Positions 19,991 through 31,047 of a DNA stretch of 64,000 nt are shown here, one piece after another (position 1 is the stretch's first letter; every line of letters starts with the position of its first letter). The position numbers and the translations under genes were made by a program. The stretch comes from Dokdonella immobilis (GTDB lineage: Bacteria > Pseudomonadota > Gammaproteobacteria > Xanthomonadales > Rhodanobacteraceae). The notes beneath the pieces were generated by a model, which saw only the letters and a list, made by a program, of their open reading frames with translations, made no database searches and had not been told where the DNA came from. The stretch is taken from NCBI RefSeq assembly GCF_900115085.1, contig NZ_FOVF01000007.1, forward strand, positions 1 to 64,000, given 5' to 3'.

Positions 19991-20218
19991 GGTGGCTGAC
20001 GGCTTGGCATCGTGGTCAGCCGCGGATGATAGCAGTCCCCGGGCCGCCGCCGTTTTGGCCACGGAAATCCATGAATCCTTAGGTAAGCATTCAGTAAGCC
20101 TGTGCTGTAATCCTGCCCAATACGAGGCTGTCAGGCGCCACCAGGAAGCCGATTCATTCCATCAGGCAGGCCCGCAGAAGGCCCGGCTCGATAGCCCGAC
20201 CCCGATTTGGAGATTGCA

Positions 20219-20764
20219 ATGCTCAAGAATGTTCTGCTGGCCGCCCTCGCCGGAGCTGCCTTGTTCGCCGGCTCTGCGCAGGCGCAGGATCGTGGCTATG
20301 GCGACGATCGCGGCCCCGACAACGTGCGCCTGGCCTGGGCCGACGTGCTGCGTGTCGATCCGGTCTACGACGAGGTCGTCTCCACGCGTCCGCGCGAGGA
20401 ATGCTACGACACCGAAGTCGAGCGTCGTGATTCCCGCGGCAACAACGGAGCCGGCACGGTCATCGGCGCCATCGTCGGCGGTGCCCTCGGCAATCAGGTC
20501 GGCAAGGGCGATGGCCGCAAGGCGGCCACGGTCGCCGGCGCCCTGATCGGCGGCGCGATCGGCAACAATGCCGCCCGCCGTGACGATCGCTACTACGCGG
20601 AGCCGGAAACGCGCTGCCGCACGGTCAGCGAGCGCTACAGCGAACGCCGCATCGTCGGCTACGACGTGCAGTATCGCTATCGCGGCGACGTGTTCATGTC
20701 GCATCTGGACTACGACCCGGGCGAGCGCATGCGGGTGCGGGTCAGCGTCGCGCCGGCCGAATAA
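20219..20764 (+). CDS. Glycine-zipper (2TM) envelope protein
   Basis: 181 aa. Signal peptide MLKNVLLAALAGAALFAGSAQA with probable cleavage before Gln. A charged region is followed by a glycine-zipper pair, GTVIGAIVGGALGNQVGKG and VAGALIGGAIGNNAA, as in the 17 kDa surface antigen/SlyB-type proteins, then a Tyr/Arg-rich C-terminal segment (VQYRYRGDVFMSHLDYD). Probably outer-membrane or periplasmic; no lipobox Cys. The ATG at 20219 has GGAG 7 nt upstream. Monocistronic, with a hairpin terminator at 20791. Confidence 0.85.
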   Translation: MLKNVLLAALAGAALFAGSAQAQDRGYGDDRGPDNVRLAWADVLRVDPVYDEVVSTRPREECYDTEVERRDSRGNNGAGTVIGAIVGGALGNQVGKGDGRKAATVAGALIGGAIGNNAARRDDRYYAEPETRCRTVSERYSERRIVGYDVQYRYRGDVFMSHLDYDPGERMRVRVSVAPAE

Positions 20765-20790
20765 ACCGCACACTCCGCAGGGGTCGAACG

Positions 20791-20817
20791 CAGGGCCGCC
20801 CATTGGCGGCCCTGTTT
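20791..20817 (+). terminator. Probable terminator after the glycine-zipper gene
   Basis: Ten-bp stem CAGGGCCGCC/GGCGGCCCTG with loop CATT, then TTTGCATTTT. The stem is strong but the T-run is short and interrupted. Confidence 0.65.
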
Positions 20818-20885
20818 GCATTTTGGTCTGCCGCAAGAGGCATCTGTTGCACTGCGGCAGAAATGCCGGTAACGTCAGTCCCGCC

Positions 20886-20990
20886 ATGAACCGACAGCCG
20901 ACCGCCGCCACGATCCTGACCAGCGCCCGCATGGCCGCCGGCATGACCTCGCGCGCGCGCCGACCGATGACCTCCAATCCGGTCGGGTAG
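20886..20990 (+). CDS. Candidate arginine leader peptide before argF'
   Basis: A 34-codon frame from ATG 20886 to TAG 20988. It contains five Arg codons, three of them in the stretch Ser-Arg-Ala-Arg-Arg-Pro at codons 22-27 (CGC GCG CGC CGA). It is placed just before a hairpin series and terminator upstream of argF', as in amino-acid attenuators. Against it: no clear Shine-Dalgarno sequence precedes the ATG. A weak promoter (TTGCAC 20847, TAACGT 20870) would make the mRNA nearly leaderless. Coding status is an inference. Confidence 0.45.
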   Translation: MNRQPTAATILTSARMAAGMTSRARRPMTSNPVG

Positions 20991-21047
20991 CTGTCGCGCG
21001 TTCCAAGTGTTTCGACGAAGACCCGGCCCACGTGCCGGGTTTTTTTG
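20960..21047 (+). promoter_or_regulatory. Candidate transcription attenuator of the arginine cluster
   Basis: Four segments can pair in alternative ways: segment 1 CCGACC (20960-20965, within the Arg codons), segment 2 GGTCGGG (20981-20987, just before the leader stop), segment 3 CCCGGCC (21022-21028) and segment 4 GCCGGGT (21034-21040). 1:2 allows the 3:4 terminator; 2:3 (seven pairs, one G-U) prevents it. A ribosome stalled at the Arg codons would cover segment 1 and favour 2:3, turning on argF' when charged Arg-tRNA is scarce. Inferred from sequence complementarity only. Confidence 0.5.
21021..21047 (+). terminator. Rho-independent terminator upstream of argF'
   Basis: Seven-bp stem ACCCGGC/GCCGGGT, loop CCACGT, followed by seven T residues. 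It lies 22 nt before the argF' GTG with no gene ending nearby except the short Arg-containing frame, so it is best explained as the terminator half of an attenuator. Confidence 0.8.
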
Positions 21048-21068
21048 TTTTCTGCAGGGGGTAGCGCC

Positions 21069-22097
21069 GTGAACACCAAGCATTTCCTGAGTACGCAGGA
21101 CTGGAGCCGGTCCGAACTGGACACGCTGCTCGATCAGGCCCGGGCGTTTCGCGAGTCCCGCCTGGGCGACCAGCTCGCCGGCAAGGCGATCGCGCTGCTG
21201 TTCTTCAATCCCTCGATGCGCACGCGCACGAGTTTCGAGCTGGGCGCCCATCAGCTCGGTGGCAAGGCCATCGTGCTCGCTCCCGGCAAGGATGCCTGGC
21301 CGATCGAGTTCGAGGTGGGCAGCGTCATGGATGGCGAGACCGAGGAGCACATCGCCGAGGTGGCCCGGGTGTTGAGCCGTTACGTCGACCTGATCGGCGT
21401 GCGCGCCTTTCCGAAGTTCCAGGACTGGTCGGTCGATCGCGAGGACACGGTCATCCAGGCCTTCGCGAGATATTCGACCGTACCGGTGATCAACATGGAA
21501 ACGATCACCCACCCGTGCCAGGAACTGGCCCACATCATGGCCCTGCAGCAGCACCTGGGCACGGAGCTGAAGGGGCGCAAATACGTCCTGACCTGGACCT
21601 ACCATCCGAAGCCGCTGAATACCGCCGTGGCCAACTCGGCCCTGCAGATCGCTACGCGCTATGGCATGGACGTGACCCTGCTGTGCCCGTCCGGGGCCTA
21701 TCTGCTCGATCCGCGCTACATGGATTTCGCCCGGGAAAACGTCGCCGCCAACGGCGGCAGCCTGCGCGTCAGCCACGACATCGAAAGCGCCTACCGCGAT
21801 GCCGACGTCGTCTACGCCAAGAGCTGGGGCGCCATCCCGTTCTTCGGCCGCTGGGACGAAGAACGCCAGATCCGAGAGGGCAACAAGCACTTCATCGTCG
21901 ACGAGGCGAAGATGGCCCTGACCAACCATGGCCTGTTCAGCCATTGCTTGCCGCTGCGCCGCAATGTCAAGGCCACCGATGCGGTGATGGATTCGCCTTC
22001 CTGCATCGCCATCGACGAAGCCGAGAACCGGCTGCATGTGCAGAAAGCGATCATGGCTGCGCTGGTGGCGCAGCCGGGATTCGGGATTCGGGAATGA
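21069..22097 (+). CDS. argF': N-acetylornithine carbamoyltransferase
   Basis: 342 aa from GTG 21069 (GGGGGT upstream). It transfers carbamoyl from carbamoyl phosphate to N-acetylornithine, giving N-acetylcitrulline, in the Xanthomonas-type arginine pathway. Carbamoyl-phosphate loop SMRTRTS at 49-55, HPCQ at 148-151 and HCLPLRR near 292-298 are present. Glu92, which selects acetylated ornithine in the X. campestris enzyme, is conserved, and Lys301 matches its carboxylated Lys302. The last seven residues (PGFGIRE) are encoded by a GGGATTCGG repeat that reaches into the gene. First gene of the arg cluster. Confidence 0.96.
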   Translation: MNTKHFLSTQDWSRSELDTLLDQARAFRESRLGDQLAGKAIALLFFNPSMRTRTSFELGAHQLGGKAIVLAPGKDAWPIEFEVGSVMDGETEEHIAEVARVLSRYVDLIGVRAFPKFQDWSVDREDTVIQAFARYSTVPVINMETITHPCQELAHIMALQQHLGTELKGRKYVLTWTYHPKPLNTAVANSALQIATRYGMDVTLLCPSGAYLLDPRYMDFARENVAANGGSLRVSHDIESAYRDADVVYAKSWGAIPFFGRWDEERQIREGNKHFIVDEAKMALTNHGLFSHCLPLRRNVKATDAVMDSPSCIAIDEAENRLHVQKAIMAALVAQPGFGIRE

Positions 22098-22236
22098 TGA
22101 AGCCGAGAATGGGGAATGGGGAATCGAGAATGGTTGGAAGCCCGTTCCTCGCACGCCTGCCTTTCATGCCATAGCCAACAGGAAAGTCCAATGTCGCAAG
22201 CTTCTTCCATTCCCGATTCCCCATTCCCCATTCCCG
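22076..22236. repeat. GGGATTCGG / GAATGGGGAAT inverted repeat spanning argF' end and argG start
   Basis: Left arm 22076-22133 consists of GGGATTCGGGATTCGGGAA then GAATGGGGAATGGGGAATCGAGAATGG; right arm 22207-22236 is CATTCCCGATTCCCCATTCCCCATTCCCG. The left arm supplies the final codons and stop of argF', and the right arm supplies codons of the ArgG N-terminus ([11 protein letters not shown]). The element thus lies across two coding ends, unlike the four purely intergenic copies in the ribosomal region. Confidence 0.85.
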
Positions 22237-23438
22237 AACAACGAAACGTTGTTCTCGCGTTCTCCGGCGGCCTCGACACGAGTTTCTGCATTCCGTACCT
22301 GCAGGAACGCGGCTATGCCGTGCATACGGTGTTCGCCGACACCGGCGGCGTCGATGCCGACGAGCGCGCCTTCATCGAGGCACGCGCGGCCGAGCTCGGC
22401 GCGGCCAGCCACGTGACCGTCGACGGCGGTCCGGCGATCTGGGAGGGCTTCGTCAAGCCCTTCGTCCGGGCCGGGGAGGGCTATCAGGGCCAGTATCCGC
22501 TGCTCGTCTCGGATCGTTACCTGATCGTCGAAGCCGCGTTGCGGCGGGCCGGCGAGCTCGGCACGCGCGCCATCGCCCACGGCTGCACCGGCATGGGCAA
22601 CGACCAGGTGCGCTTCGACCTGACCGTCAAGGCGCTCGGCGACTACGAGATCATCGCGCCGATCCGCGAGATCCAGAAAGAGCACACCGAGGTTCGCGCC
22701 TACGAACAGAAATATCTCGAAGCGCGCGGGTTCGCGGTGCGCGCGAAACAGATGGCCTACACGATAAACGAGAACCTGCTCGGCCTGACCATGTCGGGTG
22801 GCGAGATCGATCGCTGGGAGGCGCCTGGCGAGGGCGCGCGTGGCTGGTGTGCGCCGAAGGCGGAATGGCCAACAAGTGCCTTGCAGGTGAAGTTGACCTT
22901 CCGGCACGGCGAAGCGGTGGCACTCGACGATGAGCCTCTGGCGGGGCATGTCCTGCTGGCCCGCCTCAACCAGATGTTCGCCCGCTTCGGGGTCGGTCGC
23001 GGCCTCTACACCGGCGACACCACGATCGGCCTCAAGGGTCGCATCATCTACGAGGCGCCGGGACTCGCTGCGTTGCTGGTCGCCCATCGCGCGCTCGAGG
23101 AAGCGGTGTTGTCCAAGGCCCAGAACCGCTTCAAGCCGGTGGTCGCGCGGCAGTGGGTGGAACTGGTCTATGAAGGCTTCTTCCATGATCCCTTGAAGAC
23201 CGACCTCGAGGCTTTCCTGGCGGCCTCGCAGCGTTGCGTCAATGGCGAGGTGACCTTGCAGACCGAAGGCGGCAACGTGCACGCGGTGGCGATCCGCTCG
23301 CCGCACATCCTCACTGCCAAGGGCGCGACCTACGCGCAGTCGGCCGACTGGGGCGTGGCCGAGGCCGAGGGTTTCATCCGCCTCTATGGCATGAGCTCGA
23401 CGCTGTGGGCCGAGGTCAACCGGAAGCCGGCGCAATGA
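22191..23438 (+). CDS. argG: Argininosuccinate synthase
   Basis: 415 aa. It ligates citrulline and aspartate with ATP. The P-loop-like motif is [12 protein letters not shown], and [12 protein letters not shown] and [12 protein letters not shown] belong to the active site. The ATG at 22191 (AGGAAAG upstream) gives an N-terminus of about 15 residues, [13 protein letters not shown], that is repeat-derived and precedes the conserved NVVLAFSGG. Its stop overlaps the argE' ATG (ATGA at 23435), so the genes are coupled. Confidence 0.95.
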
Positions 23439-24523
23439 GCGCATTGCTCGATGCCACGCTGGCCCATCTGCGCGCGCTGGTTGCGTTCGATACGCGCAAT
23501 CCGCCGCGCGCCATCGGCACTGGCGGCATCTTCGATTACCTGCGCACGAACCTGCCCGGGTTCGAGATCAGCGTGACCGACCACGGCGCCGGTGCGGTCA
23601 GCCTGTTCGCCGTGCGCGGCAAGCCGCGGTTCCTGTTCAACGTGCATCTCGACACCGTGCCCGATTCGCCGCACTGGAGCGCAAGCCCGTTCGAACTGCG
23701 CCGGACCGACACGCGTGCGATCGGCCTCGGTGCCTGCGACATCAAGGGTGCAGCCGCTGCGCTGCTCGCCGCGGCGAATCGCGTCGACGGCGACGCGGCC
23801 TTCCTGTTCAGCTCGGACGAAGAAGCCAACGATCCGCGTTGCGTCGCCGCGTTCCTCGCCCGCGGCATGCCGTATGAAGCGGTGTTGGTGGCCGAACCGA
23901 CCCGCGCCGAGGCCGTGCTCGCCCATCGCGGCATCAGTTCCGTATTGATGCGTTTCGCAGGCACCGCTGGACATGCCTCGGCCGAACAGACCGTGGCCGA
24001 CAGCGCGCTGCACCAGGCGATCCGCTGGGGCAACCGCGCCCTGGCCCATGTCGAGGCCTGCGCGCACGAGCGCTTCGGCGGACTGACCGGGCTGCGCTTC
24101 AACATCGGTCGCATCGAAGGCGGCATCAAGGCCAACATGATCGCCCCGCAAGCCGAACTGCGCTTCGGCTTGCGGCCGCTGCCCTCGACCGATGTCGACG
24201 ACCTGCTCGATGCCTTTCGCAGTTTCGCCAATCCGCCCGCCGCAGAGTTCAGCGAGACCTTTCGCGGGCCGAGCCTGCCCTCGGGCCTGATTGCCGATGC
24301 CGAAGCACGCCGGCTTGCGGCACGCGATGTCGCCGATGCCCTCGACCTTCCGATCGGCAATGCGGTCGACTTCTGGACCGAGGCCTCGCTGTTTTCGCAG
24401 GCCGGCTACACCGCGCTCGTCTACGGGCCGGGGGATATCGCCCAGGCCCACACTGCCGACGAATGGGTAGCGTTGGACCAATTGGACGCCTACGCCGAAT
24501 CGGTCACCAGGATCCTGCAATGA
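23435..24523 (+). CDS. argE': Acetylcitrulline deacetylase
   Basis: 362 aa M20-family metallohydrolase. In this pathway it removes acetate from N-acetylcitrulline to give citrulline for ArgG. Metal ligands: FNVHLDTVP (His, Asp), SSDEEAND (catalytic Glu and metal Glu), VAEPT and, near the end, [10 protein letters not shown]. The dimerisation domain lies around residues 165-275 ([15 protein letters not shown]). Generic ArgE-type acetylornithine activity cannot be excluded, but the neighbouring argF' makes acetylcitrulline the expected substrate. Overlaps argG and argB/A by 4 bp each. Confidence 0.92.
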
Positions 24524-25857
24524 ACAAGGCCACGCGCCAGACCCGCCAGACCATCGTGCGTCTGCTTTCGAGCATGGCCAGTGCGAAGGAGATCTCGCAA
24601 TACCTCAAGCGCTTCTCGCAGCTCGATGCGAAGCGCTTCGCCGTGGTCAAGGTCGGCGGCGCGGTGTTGCGTGACGACCTCGATGCGCTGACCTCTTCGC
24701 TGGCCTTCCTGCAGGAAGTCGGCTTGACCCCGATCGTCGTGCATGGCGCCGGCCCGCAACTGGACGAGGAACTGGCCGCCGCCGGCATCGGCAAGCAGAC
24801 CGTCAACGGCCTGCGCGTGACGACGCCCGAAGCGCTGGCGATCGTCCGCCGCGTGTTCCAGGCGCAGAACCTCAGGCTGGTCGAGGCCCTGCAGGAAGGC
24901 AACACGCGGGCCACCTCGATCACCGCCGGCGTGTTCGAGGCCGAGTATCTCGATCGCGACACACTCGGCCTGGTCGGCCGCGTCTGCGGCGTCAACCTCG
25001 CGCCGATCGAGGCCAGCCTGAATGCCGGCTCGATCCCGGTCATCGCCAGCACCGGGGAAACAGCCGGCGGCCAGATCCTCAACATCAATGCCGACTTCGC
25101 CGCCAACGAACTCGTGCAGGTACTGCAACCGTACAAGATCATCTTCCTGACCGGCACCGGCGGCCTGCTCGACGGCGAGGATCGCGTGATCGACTCCATC
25201 AACCTGTCGACCGAATACGCGCATCTGCTCGCCCAGCCCTGGCTGCACTCGGGCATGCGCGTGAAGATCGAGCAGATCAAGGACCTGCTCGATCGCTTGC
25301 CGCTGACCTCGTCGGTTTCGATCACCAAGCCGGCCGAGCTGGCCAAGGAACTGTTCACGCACAAGGGCTCGGGAACCCTGATCCGGCGCGGCGAGAAGGT
25401 CCTGCGCGCGACCTCGTGGAACGAACTCGACCTGCCGCGCCTGCGCGAGCTGATCGAGTCGAGCTTCTCGCGCACGCTGGTGCAGGACTACTTCGAAAAG
25501 ACGCCGCTGTTCCGTGCCTATGTCAGCGAGAACTATCGAACCGCACTGATCCTGCTCGAAGCCGAGGGCGGTGCCTACCTCGACAAGTTCGCCGTGCTCG
25601 ACGACGCCCAGGGCGAAGGTCTCGGTCGCGCCGTCTGGCAGGTCATGCGTGAAGAGAACCCCCGGCTGTTCTGGCGCTCGCGCCACGGCAATCCGGTCAA
25701 TCCGTTCTACTACGCCGAGTCCGATGGCTGCTACAAGATGGCGCAGTGGAAGGTGTTCTGGTACGGCATCGAAGACTTCGCCGAGATCGAGCGCTGCGTC
25801 GAACAGTGCCGCTCGCGCCCGGCCACGCTGGCCAGCCCGGTCGGGGTGGCCTCGTGA
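24520..25857 (+). CDS. argB/argA: Bifunctional N-acetylglutamate synthase/kinase
   Basis: 445 aa fusion. Residues about 35-290 form an amino-acid kinase domain ([39 protein letters not shown]); residues about 300-440 form a GNAT-like acyltransferase domain of the vertebrate-type NAGS ([29 protein letters not shown]). It makes and phosphorylates N-acetylglutamate, the first two steps of arginine synthesis. Such fusions are typical of Xanthomonadales; in them the kinase domain also carries the arginine feedback site (family knowledge). Starts at ATG 24520 overlapping argE'. Confidence 0.95.
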
Positions 25858-26828
25858 CGCGCCGCGCGATCGGACTGGTCGGCGCGCGCGGTCATACCGG
25901 TGCCGAACTGATTCGCCTGGCCGGCGCCCATCCGGGCCTCGAACTCGGCTTCGTCTCCTCGCGTGAACTGCAAGGCCAGCGCGTGGCCGATCATGTCGGG
26001 GGTTACCACGGCGACTTGCGCTACGGTCTGCTCGATGCCGAGGCCGTCGCCGCCGAGGCGCTCGATGCGATCGTGCTCGCGCTTCCCAACGACAAGGCCG
26101 CACCGTACGTGCAGGCGCTCGATGCCGGGGGCAGCGAAGCGGTGATCGTCGATCTCTCGGCCGACTACCGCTTCGATGAGCGCTGGTACTACGGTTTGCC
26201 GGAACTGACCCGGGCTCGTTATGCCGGGCAGCGGCGGATCAGCAATCCGGGCTGCTACGCGACCGCGATGCAGCTTGCCATTGCGCCACTGACCGAAATG
26301 CTGACCGGGCCGCCGCAGTGCTTCGGCGTTTCCGGCTATTCCGGCGCCGGTACCACGCCATCGGACCGCAACGACTTCGACAAGCTGCGAAACAACCTGA
26401 TGCCGTACGCGCTGGTCGGCCACGTGCACGAACGCGAGGTGTCGCGCCACCTCGGCTTGCCGGTCGAATTCATGCCGCATGTCGCGCCGCACTTCCGCGG
26501 CATCACGATGACGGTCAACCTCTGGCTGCAGCACCCGGTCAAGCGCGAGGCGATCATCGATCGCTATCGCGCCTTCTATGCCGACGAGGCGCTCGTACAT
26601 GTGGTCGAGGAGGCGCCCTGGGTCAGCCGCATCGCTGGCCGTCATCATGCCGAAATCGGCGCCTTCGCCGTCGCTGCAGGCGGCCGGCGCGTGGTCATCG
26701 TGGCCACCCTCGACAACCTGCTCAAGGGTGCCGCGACCCAGGCCCTGCAGAATCTCAATACGGCCCTGGGCTTCGATGAACTCGAAGGCATTCCGGCCAA
26801 CGGCACGACCACGGAGGCGACGGCATGA
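25854..26828 (+). CDS. argC: N-acetyl-gamma-glutamyl-phosphate reductase
   Basis: 324 aa, starting at GTG 25854, which overlaps the argB/A stop as GTGA. NADP-binding [16 protein letters not shown] at the N-terminus, catalytic Cys134 in [13 protein letters not shown], and catalytic-domain segment [12 protein letters not shown]. It reduces N-acetylglutamyl phosphate to the semialdehyde. The stop overlaps the argH ATG by 4 bp. Confidence 0.96.
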
Positions 26829-28117
26829 GTGACCTGCTCTGGCAGAAGTCGGGAATCGCGACCGATCCGCGCATCATGCGCTTCCTCGCCGGCGACGATG
26901 TGTTGCTCGATCGCGAGCTGTTCGTTTACGACATCGAGGCGAGCAAGGCGCACGTCGAAGGCCTGGCCAACATCGGCATCGTCAGCGCCGACGAGGCGGA
27001 CCCGCTCGTTCGCGAGCTCGATGCCCTGGCCGCCGATTTCCGCGATGGCCAATTTGTCCTCGATGAGCGTTTCGAGGACGGCCATTCGGCGATCGAGGCG
27101 CGCTTGATCGAGCGCCTCGGCGATACCGGCCGCAAGGTCCACACCGGGCGCAGCCGCAATGACCAGGTGCTGGTCGCCAGTCGACTCTGGCTCAAGGCGA
27201 AACTGGAAGGGTTGCGCGCGACCTGTACCGCCATTGCCGAAGTCTGCCTCGATCGGGCCGGGCGCGAGGTGCTGCCAATGCCTGGCTACACGCATCTGCA
27301 GCGGGCCGTGGTGTCGTCCACGGCGATGTGGTTCGCCGGCTTCGCCGAGGCCTTCATCGACAATGCCTGGCGCGCGCGCCAGACCCTCGAACTGATCGAT
27401 GCGAACCCGCTCGGCACGGCCGCTGGCTACGGCGTCAACTTGCCGCTCGATCGCGCGCACACGACACGCAGGCTCGGCTTCGCGCGCCTTCAGGTCAGCC
27501 CGATCTACACCCAGCTCTCGCGCGGCAAGTTCGAGATGGCGGCGCTCGATGCGCTCGGTGCCGCCGTGCTCGACCTGCGCCGGCTGGCCTGGGACCTGTC
27601 GCTGTTCACCACGGCCGAATTCGGCTTCGTACGCTTGCCGTCGCAGTACACGACCGGCAGTTCGATCATGCCGAACAAGCGCAACCCGGATGTCATCGAA
27701 TTGATGCGTGCCAGCTACGCCAGCGTCGCCGCCGCCCGCACCGAGATCGAACAGCTACTGTCCTTGCCCAGCGGCTACCAGCGCGACCTGCAGGCCAGCA
27801 AGGGCTCTGTCCTGCACGGCTTCCATCGCGGACTCGACGCCCTGGCGTTGTTGCCGGACCTGCTGGCCGCGCTCGAATGGGATGCGGCGCGGATGCGCGC
27901 GGCGATCGAGCCGGCCATGCATGCGACCGACGTCGCGATCGAGGCGTCGATTGCCGGTGTGCCGTTTCGCGAGGCCTACCGGGCGGCGGCAGAAGGTGCC
28001 GGCGAAACCGGGCAGGGCCGCACACCCGAATCCAGCCTGGCCGCACGTACCTCGCCCGGCGCCGGTTCGGATCTGCGTCTCGATGCGCTGCGCACACGCC
28101 TTGCTGAATTGACATGA
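26825..28117 (+). CDS. argH: Argininosuccinate lyase
   Basis: 430 aa member of the fumarase/aspartase superfamily. Signature loop with the catalytic Ser is [25 protein letters not shown] and [10 protein letters not shown] are also present. It splits argininosuccinate to arginine and fumarate, the last step of the pathway. Start ATG overlaps the argC stop. The C-terminal residues after about 400 ([17 protein letters not shown]) are Ser/Gly-rich. It ends 30 bp before a REP tandem array. Confidence 0.96.
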
Positions 28118-28147
28118 ACCACGCACGAGTCGTCAGCAATGAATCTC

Positions 28148-28582
28148 GTAGGGGCGGCTTCAGCCGCGATGCTCCTGTCGAATCGTGCCGAAGAGCATCG
28201 AGCCTGAAGGCTCTTCCTACAGGGAGAGCGAACAGGCGGCGCGGGTTTCCTGGGCGGCTTTCGCGTTTCGGCTTCGTTGTTGGAGCGGCTTTCAGCCGCG
28301 ATGCTCTTGTCGATTCGCGCCGAAGCGCATCGAGCCTGAAGGCTCTTCCTACAGGGAGAGCGAACAGGAGGCACGGGTTTCCTGGGCGGCTCTCGCGTTT
28401 TGGCTTCGTTGTAGGAGCGAACTTCAGCCGCGATGCTCTTTTCGATTCGTGCCGAAGCGCATCGAGCCTGAAGGCTCTTCCTACAGGGAGATCAAACAGG
28501 CGGCGCGGGTTTCTTGGGCGGCTCTTGCGTTTCGGCTTCGCTGTAGGAGCGGCCTTCAGCCGCGATGCTTTCCGATTGCGCC
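28148..28582. repeat. Tandem array of 132-bp REP units between argH and proB
   Basis: Copies begin at 28148, 28279, 28411 and 28543 (period 131-132 bp); three are complete and the fourth is cut short after about 40 bp. Each unit starts with GTAGGAGCGGCTTTCAGCCGCGATG, a REP-type palindrome, continues to an inverse copy CATCGAGCCTGAAGGCTCTTCCTAC, and ends with a constant 60-bp stretch. Two REPs facing each other per unit make this a BIME-like structure. The open plus-strand frame through it is a by-product of the repeat and not a gene. Confidence 0.9.
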
Positions 28583-28601
28583 GGCAACAGGCAACGCGCC
28601 C

Positions 28602-29762
28602 ATGAACATCGATTCTGCGGCCCGTCCTTCAGGTGGATTTTCGGAACAACCGCTGCCCAGTTGGCGCCGCGCCGTTCTCAAGGTCGGCAGCAGCCTGCTG
28701 ACCGAGAATGGCGCCGGGCTCAGTCGGCGTCATGTGGTCGGCCTCGCCGCATTCGTTGCCGACAGTCTCGCCGCCGGGCGTGAAGTCATCATCGTCTCGT
28801 CAGGCGCGGTGGCCGCCGGCCGCGCGATCCTGCCGACCCAGCCTGCCCGCGGCGCCGCCATGGCCGCTCGCCAGGCCTTCGCCGCGCTCGGCCAGGCACG
28901 CATGGTCGGGCTCTGGCAGGACTGCCTCGCGCGACCCGTCGCCCAGGTCCTGCTGACCCATGACGATCTGCGCAACCGTCGTCGTTACCTGAATGCAAGG
29001 GCGACCCTGAGCGAATTGCTGCGTCTCGGCGCGGTGCCGGTGATCAACGAGAATGACACGGTTTCGGTCGACGAACTCAAGCTCGGCGACAACGACAACC
29101 TGGCCGCGATCGTCGCTGCCCTCGTCGAAGCCGACCTGCTGCTGATCGCGACCGATATCGACGGTCTGTTCACGGCCAATCCCCGAACCGACCCGACCGC
29201 GCAACCGGTCGAGACCATCGACAGCACCGATCCAAAGGCGCTGGCCATGGCCGGCGGGGCAGGGACGGCGACCGGCACCGGCGGCATGCGCACCAAGCTC
29301 GAAGCGGCGACACGCGCGGCCCGAGCCGGCATCGACACGGTGCTGTTCAACGGCACCGACGCCGTCGCCGTCGCCCTGCTCGGCGCGGGCCGCCTGCGCG
29401 GCACACGGCTGCGGGCCGGTCAGACGCGACTGGCCGCACGCAAGCACTGGCTGCAGCAGGTGCCATTGGCTTCGGGGTCGCTGCTGGTCGACGAAGGCGC
29501 AGCCCGGGCCCTGGTCGGGAAGGGTGCATCGCTGCTGCCCGGTGGCATCCTTGCCGTGCGCGGTGAGTTCGCCCGCGGCGACATGGTCGCCATCGCGGCC
29601 GGACCGGCCGATGGCGAGCAGCCTGTCGCGCGCGGGCTGACCCAGTATTCCGCCGCCGATGTGCGCCGCATCGCGCGCCGTCACAGCCGCGACATCGAAA
29701 GCCTGCTCGGCTACAACTACGGTGAAAGCGTGATCCATCGCGACGACATGGTGACGGACTAG
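28602..29762 (+). CDS. proB: Glutamate 5-kinase
   Basis: 386 aa. Amino-acid kinase domain to about residue 270 ([60 protein letters not shown]) and a C-terminal PUA domain (about 290-375). It phosphorylates glutamate for proline synthesis. The ATG at 28602 is the first Met after the repeat array and gives a family-length N-terminus. proA follows 4 nt after the stop. Confidence 0.95.
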
Positions 29763-29766
29763 TTCT

Positions 29767-31047
29767 ATGAATCCCGATATGAAAACGCTGGCCCTGGCCT
29801 GTCGCGAAGCGGCCGTCGCCATCGCCGCCCTCGGCCCGGCCGCCAAGCGCGACCTGCTGCTCGACATGGCCGCGCGCATCGAGGCCAACGCGGCGGGCAT
29901 CCTCGATGCGAATGCGGTGGACCTGCGCCGGGCCGAAGGCAGCGGCATCAGCGCGGCCCTGTTCGATCGCCTGCGCCTGGACCCTGCGCGCATTGCCGGC
30001 ATCGCACACGGGCTACGCGAAGTGGCGGGGCTGCCCGACCCGGTCGGCCAGGTCACCCATCGCGATACGCGACCCAATGGCGTCCTTGTCGAACGCGTGC
30101 GCGTTCCGCTCGGCGTCATCGCGATGATCTACGAGGCGCGACCCAATGTGACCGTCGATGCCGCCGCGCTGTGCCTGAAGGCCGGCAATGGCGTGATCCT
30201 TCGCGGTGGTTCCGAGGCCATCCATTCGAATCGGGCCCTGGCCGCACTGCTCGGCGATGCACTCGCCGCGGCCGGACTGCCGCGCGCCGCCCTGACTCTG
30301 GTCGAGGACCTGCGTCGCGAGACCATGGTCGAGCTGCTGCAGCTCACCGACATCATCGATCTCGCCATCCCGCGCGGCGGCGAGGGTCTGATCCGCTTTG
30401 TCGCCGAACATGCGCGCGTGCCGGTAATCAAGCACTACAAGGGTGTTTGCCATCTCTACGTCGACAAGGATGCCGACATCGATATTGCGCTCGGCCTGCT
30501 GATCGACGGCAAGACGACCCGCCCGAGCGCCTGCAACTCGCTCGAGACCCTGCTCGTGCACGAGGACATTGCCGGGGAGTTCCTTGCCCGGGCCGCCGTG
30601 CTGCTCGAAACGCATCATGTCGAGATGCGCGGCTGCGAGCGCACACGTGCCCTGGTTCCAACGGCGCACGCCGCCAGCGAGGCCGACTACGCCGCCGAAT
30701 TCCTCGATCTGATCATTGCGATCCGCGTGGTCGATGACCTCGATGCGGCGATCGCGCACATCCGACGCTATGGCTCCGATCACACCGAGGTGATCGCGAC
30801 GGGCGATGACGCCGCCGCGCGCCGCTTTGTCGATTCGCTGCGTTCGGCCGTGGTCATGGTCAATGCCTCGTCACGCTTCAGCGATGGCGGCGAACTCGGT
30901 CTAGGTGCCGAAATCGGCATCTCGACCACGCGCCTGCACGCCTATGGTCCGATGGGGCTCGAGGCGCTGACGATCGAACGCTATGTGCTGCACGGAAACG
31001 GCCAGATCCGGCATCCGTCCTCTCAGGGCAGGGTCGGCCCAGGCTGA
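29767..31047 (+). CDS. proA: Gamma-glutamyl phosphate reductase
   Basis: 426 aa aldehyde-dehydrogenase-fold enzyme reducing glutamyl 5-phosphate to glutamate semialdehyde. Catalytic Cys256 lies in [32 protein letters not shown] and [11 protein letters not shown] are conserved substrate/NADPH segments. Co-transcribed with proB (4-nt gap). End of the arginine/proline block. Confidence 0.96.

Follow-up and report, generated by a model that had tools for sequence, protein, structure and literature searches.

A predicted arginine attenuator with a conserved leader peptide in front of the argF' cluster of Dokdonella immobilis and related bacteria

In Salmonella, the Arg codons of a short upstream ORF (orf34, in the speF leader) sense arginine availability (PMC6386406), which makes this leader similar to the element of Dokdonella immobilis described here. 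The Salmonella leader differs in that it controls ornithine decarboxylase via Rho-dependent termination and mRNA stability (PMC6386406), and that, unlike the D. immobilis leader, it has no intrinsic terminator in front of arginine biosynthesis genes. A further likeness is provided by carA of Pseudomonas aeruginosa, a gene of arginine and pyrimidine synthesis, for which a leader peptide and proposed attenuation are cited in PMC4997734. That system acts with ArgR and has a proposed pyrimidine link; it also concerns another gene in another lineage.

A different type of counterpart is sRNA-Xoo5 of Xanthomonas oryzae, which sits between PXO_00354 and PXO_00353 (PMC3039613); the latter gene is listed elsewhere in the same paper as N-acetylornithine carbamoyltransferase. 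Xoo5 was described as a small RNA, in a paper which mentions no leader peptide and from which the word "leader" is absent (PMC3039613), and the Rfam family RF02242 ("Xoo5") is typed 'Gene; sRNA'. Northern blots revealed RNAs of ~130 and ~100 nt in X. oryzae, both present early in growth and the short one alone later (PMC3039613). We found that RF02242 matches the argF' leaders of Xanthomonas and Stenotrophomonas (90-144 bits, above the gathering score) over a stretch that begins 2 nt ahead of the leader ATG and stops immediately short of the terminator. The D. immobilis element scored 30.8 bits (E 7e-5), below the gathering score of 50, and judging by its sequence and location it is a syntenic homologue of RF02242, not a member under Rfam's rule. 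From its position, Xoo5 looks like the terminated (attenuated) argF' leader. The cloned X. oryzae 3' end lies just before the terminator and not after it, and the mapped RNA may therefore be trimmed.

We analysed a 64,000-nucleotide stretch of the D. immobilis genome (the window) and propose, with a probability of roughly 0.9, that the element in front of argF' is a ribosome-mediated transcription attenuator which ties the arg cluster to charged tRNA-Arg. This interpretation had been put forward in an earlier note, made from the sequence alone, and is now strongly supported by conservation, pairing comparisons, spacing and stall modelling. No description of an arg attenuator in this order was found in the open literature searched, and an earlier prediction may exist elsewhere.

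Layout of the leader region and its promoter

The promoter, the leader with its switch segments and the genes of the cluster lie on the forward strand. The first gene of the cluster presumed to be under attenuator control is argF' (21069-22097), which encodes N-acetylornithine carbamoyltransferase (NCBIfam NF003384 equivalog, 599.6 bits vs a cut-off of 288) and is 95% identical to argF' of the closest named relative. It is followed by argG, argE, argB, argC, argH, proB and proA (22191-31047, assigned by NCBIfam matches), the argB product being an acetylglutamate kinase with a C-terminal extension. Two of the intergenic gaps contain repeats. The argF'-argG gap (22098-22190) carries short GGGAATGG-type repeats, whose translated frames show MGNGES and MGNREW, and the argH-proB gap (28114-28605) harbors an intergenic repeat element with the unit SRDAxVxSCRxASSLKALPTG in ~3 copies in a translated frame.

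The features expected of an attenuator, i.e. a translatable ORF, Arg control codons and a predicted intrinsic terminator before the first gene, can all be recognized in the sequence. The leader peptide ORF (34 codons, MNRQPTAATILTSARMAAGMTSRARRPMTSNPVG), present as a single copy in the genome, extends from the ATG at 20886 to the TAG at 20990, and its stop codon is separated from argF' by 78 nt. The control codons (20952-20966) are Arg23 CGC, Ala24, Arg25 CGC, Arg26 CGA and Pro27 CCG, with Arg26 CGA (20961-20963) as the predicted stall site. They overlap segment 1, CCGACC (20960-20965), which is directly complementary to segment 2, GGTCGGGT (20981-20988), the putative 5' arm of the antiterminator, located where the leader ORF ends. 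Segment 3, ACCCGGCC (21021-21028), would be common to the antiterminator and to the intrinsic terminator, a hairpin of segments 3 and 4 (21017-21044) with a run of seven T (21040-21046). The earlier note had described a 34-codon frame and placed CCGACC at 20960-20965, GGTCGGG at 20981-20987 and CCCGGCC at 21022-21028, and all of its coordinates proved to be exact; the hairpin with a T-run that it had described before argF' was also recovered by the terminator scan, at 21017-21044.

The gene upstream of the leader ends at 20764 and has its own terminator, detected by the same scan at 20790-20815. The N-terminal half of the product of this small gene (20207-20764) is rich in alanine and glycine. 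Between this gene and the leader lies a predicted promoter (20847-20875) composed of the -35 box TTGCAC (20847-20852), a 17-nt spacer and the -10 box TAACGT (20870-20875). The pattern TTG[CTA]NN-N16..18-NANNNT is present upstream of the leader ATG in 92 of the 93 loci, compared with a mean of 3.0 in shuffled sequences. The distance from the -10 box to the ATG is bimodal (6-10 nt and 22-40 nt), and equals 10 nt in D. immobilis; most Xanthomonas have 9 nt. The RNA start of X. oryzae was placed 2 nt before the ATG by 5' RACE (PMC3039613), which fits both the 9-nt spacing of Xanthomonas and the first bases of the RF02242 alignment. The D. immobilis RNA is predicted to start ~3 nt before the leader ATG.

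Conservation of the leader in close and distant families

The close set comprised 110 loci of the Rhodanobacteraceae and Xanthomonadaceae, i.e. 80 named argF' loci and 30 found in relatives. All 110 have TSRARR, or a version that differs by one residue, upstream of argF', as part of a near-frozen core, SARMAAGMTSRARRP-x5-AG-stop. Among the 99 non-redundant loci, hardly any variation is seen in A-G-M-T-S-R-A-R-R-P: each residue is kept in 97-100%, apart from the first, which is Ala or Ser, and the Pro (96). Six of the core codons are free at the third base while the encoded residues (T, R, A, R, A and G) are fixed in these 99 loci; such synonymous variation indicates that the leader ORF is translated or selected as a coding sequence, and we consider it, on this comparative evidence, to be a conserved coding sequence. 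The variable parts are the N-terminal third and the linker, usually of five residues, which precedes the last two codons (Ala-Gly) carrying segment 2. Neither Pfam nor NCBIfam contains a model for the peptide. The earlier note had suggested that the short frame and its Arg codons be sought in relatives; both are kept in all of the close loci, and other Arg runs occur in distant families.

The control codons of the close families include three Arg only, and these are not consecutive (R-A-R-R). Three codons are fixed at the level of the codon itself: TCG (99/99), CGA (99/99) and CCG (96/99). Thus, CGA occupies the third leader Arg position in every one of the 99 loci, vs 12 of the 249 Arg codons (5%) in the eight operon genes from which its frequency was computed. 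CGA ranked with the slowest Arg codons when tested in a his leader assay of the E. coli type (PMC4046918).

Several natural leader variants were observed (L005, L087, L010, L015, L091 and L100), in which the conserved Pro is replaced by Asn or Arg, one Arg is replaced by His, or an early stop codon leaves segment 2 beyond the ORF. Moreover, in four Dokdonella relatives (L002, L003, L004 and L089) the stop codon of the leader is 166-497 nt away from argF', with added sequence, partly repetitive in translation, between the terminator and the gene.

The distant set consisted of 72 argF' upstream regions from nine families (f3-f11) and two extra f2 genomes. A mechanical detector, which requires a terminator and, upstream of it, the end of an ORF with three or more Arg within six codons, recognized the leader-terminator layout in 62 of these 72 regions and in 94 of the 99 close ones. 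The same detector gave no hit in 30 hisG upstream regions of the same genomes, which served as the negative control. The hisG regions had also been searched for a second leader with which conservation could be compared, but no His-rich leader was found in them. The Rfam Thr and His leader models, used as controls, gave no match above the gathering score in the order. One could argue that Arg-rich frames are common by chance in G+C-rich DNA, and that such a frame merely happens to precede an ordinary terminator of the upstream gene. That gene has a terminator of its own, a promoter separates it from the leader in 92 of the 93 loci, the hisG control was negative and the codons are invariant across 99 loci; this reading, to which we attach a negligible probability, is refuted by the conservation data.

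The frozen core fades with distance. TSRARR is still kept in f3 and f4, while other families carry different Arg-rich leaders: NPRRRRV (f7), LRRRRRL (f5), VVVRRRRP (f9), RRLRRP and its relatives (f8), RRRSRRP (f10) and RRRPRPR (f11). As judged from these regions, Arg codons are the sole feature shared by every leader-bearing family. The layout was not found in the single f6 genome examined (L115), nor in half of the f10 genomes; neither a leader nor a terminator was detected before argF' of L118, L172-L175 and L185 (f10) and of L115. In L115, a gene similar to the one at 20207-20764 of D. immobilis ends directly before argF', and hence the neighbourhood is kept though the attenuator is absent.

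The conservation of the core raises the question of what the peptide does. The nascent peptides TnaC and SpeFL are known to stall ribosomes in response to tryptophan and ornithine, respectively. By analogy, SARMAAGMTSRARRP might stall the ribosome from within the exit tunnel in response to arginine or a precursor, instead of or besides the slow decoding of Arg codons. Such a sensor would account for the ~13 residues before the CGA, which are nearly invariant despite synonymous codon changes and would occupy the upper tunnel during CGA decoding, and for the Pro that follows the CGA in 96 of the 99 loci. For a classical attenuator, control codons alone suffice. Yet the families f5 and f7-f11 lack the conserved core and retain the Arg codons alone, which indicates that Arg codon decoding is the common principle. 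In addition, if arginine caused the ribosome to stall at the Arg codons, the sign would be wrong for a biosynthetic operon; to fit, the stalling would have to take place at the stop codon. We therefore consider a peptide sensor unlikely and retain the codon-based attenuator as the preferred reading. Nevertheless, a peptide frozen beyond its Arg codons goes beyond what a codon sensor needs. We tentatively suggest that the SARMAAGMTSRARRP core may act as a nascent chain which tunes or strengthens the CGA-CCG stall, or in trans after its release. If this is true, a single element joins codon-based arginine sensing with a peptide-based function. The invariant CGA and the frozen peptide make the leader well suited to examining how codon context and the nascent chain affect attenuation.

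Alternative pairings, spacing and modelled stalling

The earlier note had proposed three alternative pairings (1:2, 2:3 and 3:4). Two of them, 2:3 and 3:4, persist while the sequence changes, but support for 1:2 is weak and comes mainly from the two closest families. The comparison of all loci shows that 2:3 and 3:4 are conserved together with their spacing. Across all loci, the 2:3 duplex is more stable with its own partners (-19.2 kcal/mol) than with swapped ones (-16.5 kcal/mol; the best of 200 permutations reached -17.0). The paired sequences vary from group to group, being GCCGGGT/ACCCGGC or GCTGGGT/ACCCAGC, while f9 has CCAGGTT/AACCTGG or TCTTTGG/CCAAAGA. In the close families the penultimate Ala codon matches the terminator arm, GCC occurring with CCCGGC in 55 loci and GCT with CCCAGC in 41, with two exceptions, one of which is a G-U pair. 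These changes represent few independent events on the tree. When covariation was calculated in a fixed register on 17 distinct rows, 2:3 was not significant (0.832 vs 0.818 for swapped partners, maximum 0.840), because most columns are invariant and a few loci shift register. In f8 own and swapped partners gave equal values, since the arms are uniform.

In D. immobilis itself, the 2:3 pairing includes one G-U pair, while 1:2 is a perfect helix of 6 bp (-20.3 kcal/mol for wider segments). The exact helix CCGACC:GGTCGG is peculiar to this sequence, segment 2 of most relatives being GGCCGG, and conservation is lower for 1:2 than for the other two pairings: in the close families own partners gave -17.8 vs -16.9 kcal/mol for swapped ones; the two values hardly differ in f8 and are alike in f9. 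The unaided fold of the single sequence is slightly more stable than shuffled controls (z = -1.7), so folding alone is insufficient as proof, which is supplied by conservation.

The spacing between the control codons and segment 2 is also constrained. With the stall site set by rule (the last Arg in the densest cluster) and not by fit, segment 2 follows the last Arg codon at a median distance of 17 nt across families, 95% of the values falling within 12-30 nt; the majority of the close loci have 17-18 nt and the majority of the distant ones 12-22 nt. How far segment 2 lies from the stop codon is, in contrast, variable. The conserved distance appears to be the one required by a ribosome stalled on an Arg codon.

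The behavior of the putative switch was modelled on nascent RNA, by masking the transcript as far as 12 nt beyond the Arg codon and folding the remainder before arm 4 exists. With a ribosome at the Arg codon, the 2:3 pairing reached a probability of at least 0.5 in 146 of the 160 loci, vs 7 of the 160 with a shuffled linker. In the model, placing the ribosome at the stop codon yields the terminator in all 160 loci, and naked RNA favours it in 147 of the 160. For D. immobilis with the ribosome at the CGA, the probability of 2:3 was 0.99 in nascent RNA and 0.76 at full length; that of the terminator was 0.97, whether the ribosome was at the stop codon or absent. At full-length equilibrium with a stalled ribosome, 2:3 reached at least 0.5 in only 22 of the 160 loci, and the terminator prevails in most. 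The switch must therefore be kinetic, i.e. decided during RNA synthesis. In classical attenuators, the choice of hairpin is likewise made while the RNA is being synthesised. The duplex comparison, the spacing and the modelling point to an antiterminator (2:3) which is exclusive with the terminator (3:4) and would be released when a ribosome stalls on the control codons.

The proposed attenuator would operate as follows. Transcription would begin directly upstream of the leader ATG. When arginine is low, the ribosome would stall on the Arg codons, most likely on the slow invariant CGA, and cover segment 1, leaving segment 2, ~17 nt downstream, free for segment 3; the 2:3 pairing would block the terminator, so that RNA polymerase could continue into argF' and the later genes. 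When arginine is ample, the ribosome would reach the stop codon and mask segment 2, the 3:4 terminator would form and transcription would end at ~21046. If no ribosome is present, 1:2 and 3:4 would form, and transcription would likewise end. We infer ribosome stalling on the Arg codons in living cells, arginine-dependent read-through and the expression of the entire cluster as one transcript.

ArgR, small RNAs and known attenuators

A search for ArgR (PF01316), which included positive controls, gave no match in the D. immobilis genome. Within the order, ArgR is absent from 143 of the 151 genomes and the eight which encode it all belong to f12. No leader was found before argF of f12, a distant relative (38-39% identity). 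In two f12 genomes (G046:C17:19701-21064 and G055:C52:16429-17791), ArgR is encoded on the strand opposite to argF, at a distance of ~1.3 kb. Since ArgR occurs only in the leaderless f12, the attenuator and ArgR are mutually exclusive in this sample, and one of them may have replaced the other during the evolution of the order. Neither a leader nor ArgR was found in the f6 genome and in some f10 genomes. An arginine T-box or riboswitch was also sought: no Rfam family reached the gathering score in the 64-kb stretch, and the weaker matches included neither a T-box nor such a riboswitch. The attenuator, found in every family examined but f6 and f12, offers an answer to how arginine synthesis may be controlled without ArgR in an order which includes Xanthomonas, Stenotrophomonas and Lysobacter.

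The homology with Xoo5 raises the possibility that the element is mainly a trans-acting small RNA, the hairpin before argF' being merely its terminator. The sRNA typing of RF02242 and the discrete Northern bands, which vary with growth (PMC3039613), are in line with this, and attenuator RNAs can acquire trans functions, as did rnTrpL of Sinorhizobium meliloti (PMC7298713). Conservation, on the other hand, tracks the codons and the alternative pairings, always before argF', and the distant families retain just the Arg codons and the switch. A trans role would add to the attenuator and not replace it, and we regard a mainly trans-acting RNA as very improbable. The attenuator reading would suggest what an Rfam family, so far classed among the small RNAs, is likely to do.

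The attenuator RNA of S. meliloti trpL (rnTrpL) resembles the predicted argF' leader RNA in that the leader ATG is its start point and that it builds up in the cell as a small RNA (PMC7298713). It differs in responding to tryptophan and in having demonstrated trans functions (PMC7298713).

To conclude, the argF' element can be compared with the classical enteric attenuators of the trp, his, leu, ilv, thr and phe operons. As in these systems, a leader ORF carries codons for the product of the pathway, and a 2:3 antiterminator would be exclusive with a 3:4 terminator, accompanied in the D. immobilis sequence by a putative 1:2 protector. Unlike them, the element would respond to arginine, and in the close families it contains few, non-consecutive control codons with an invariant rare CGA, a long frozen peptide core and, in about half of the loci, almost no 5' untranslated stretch.
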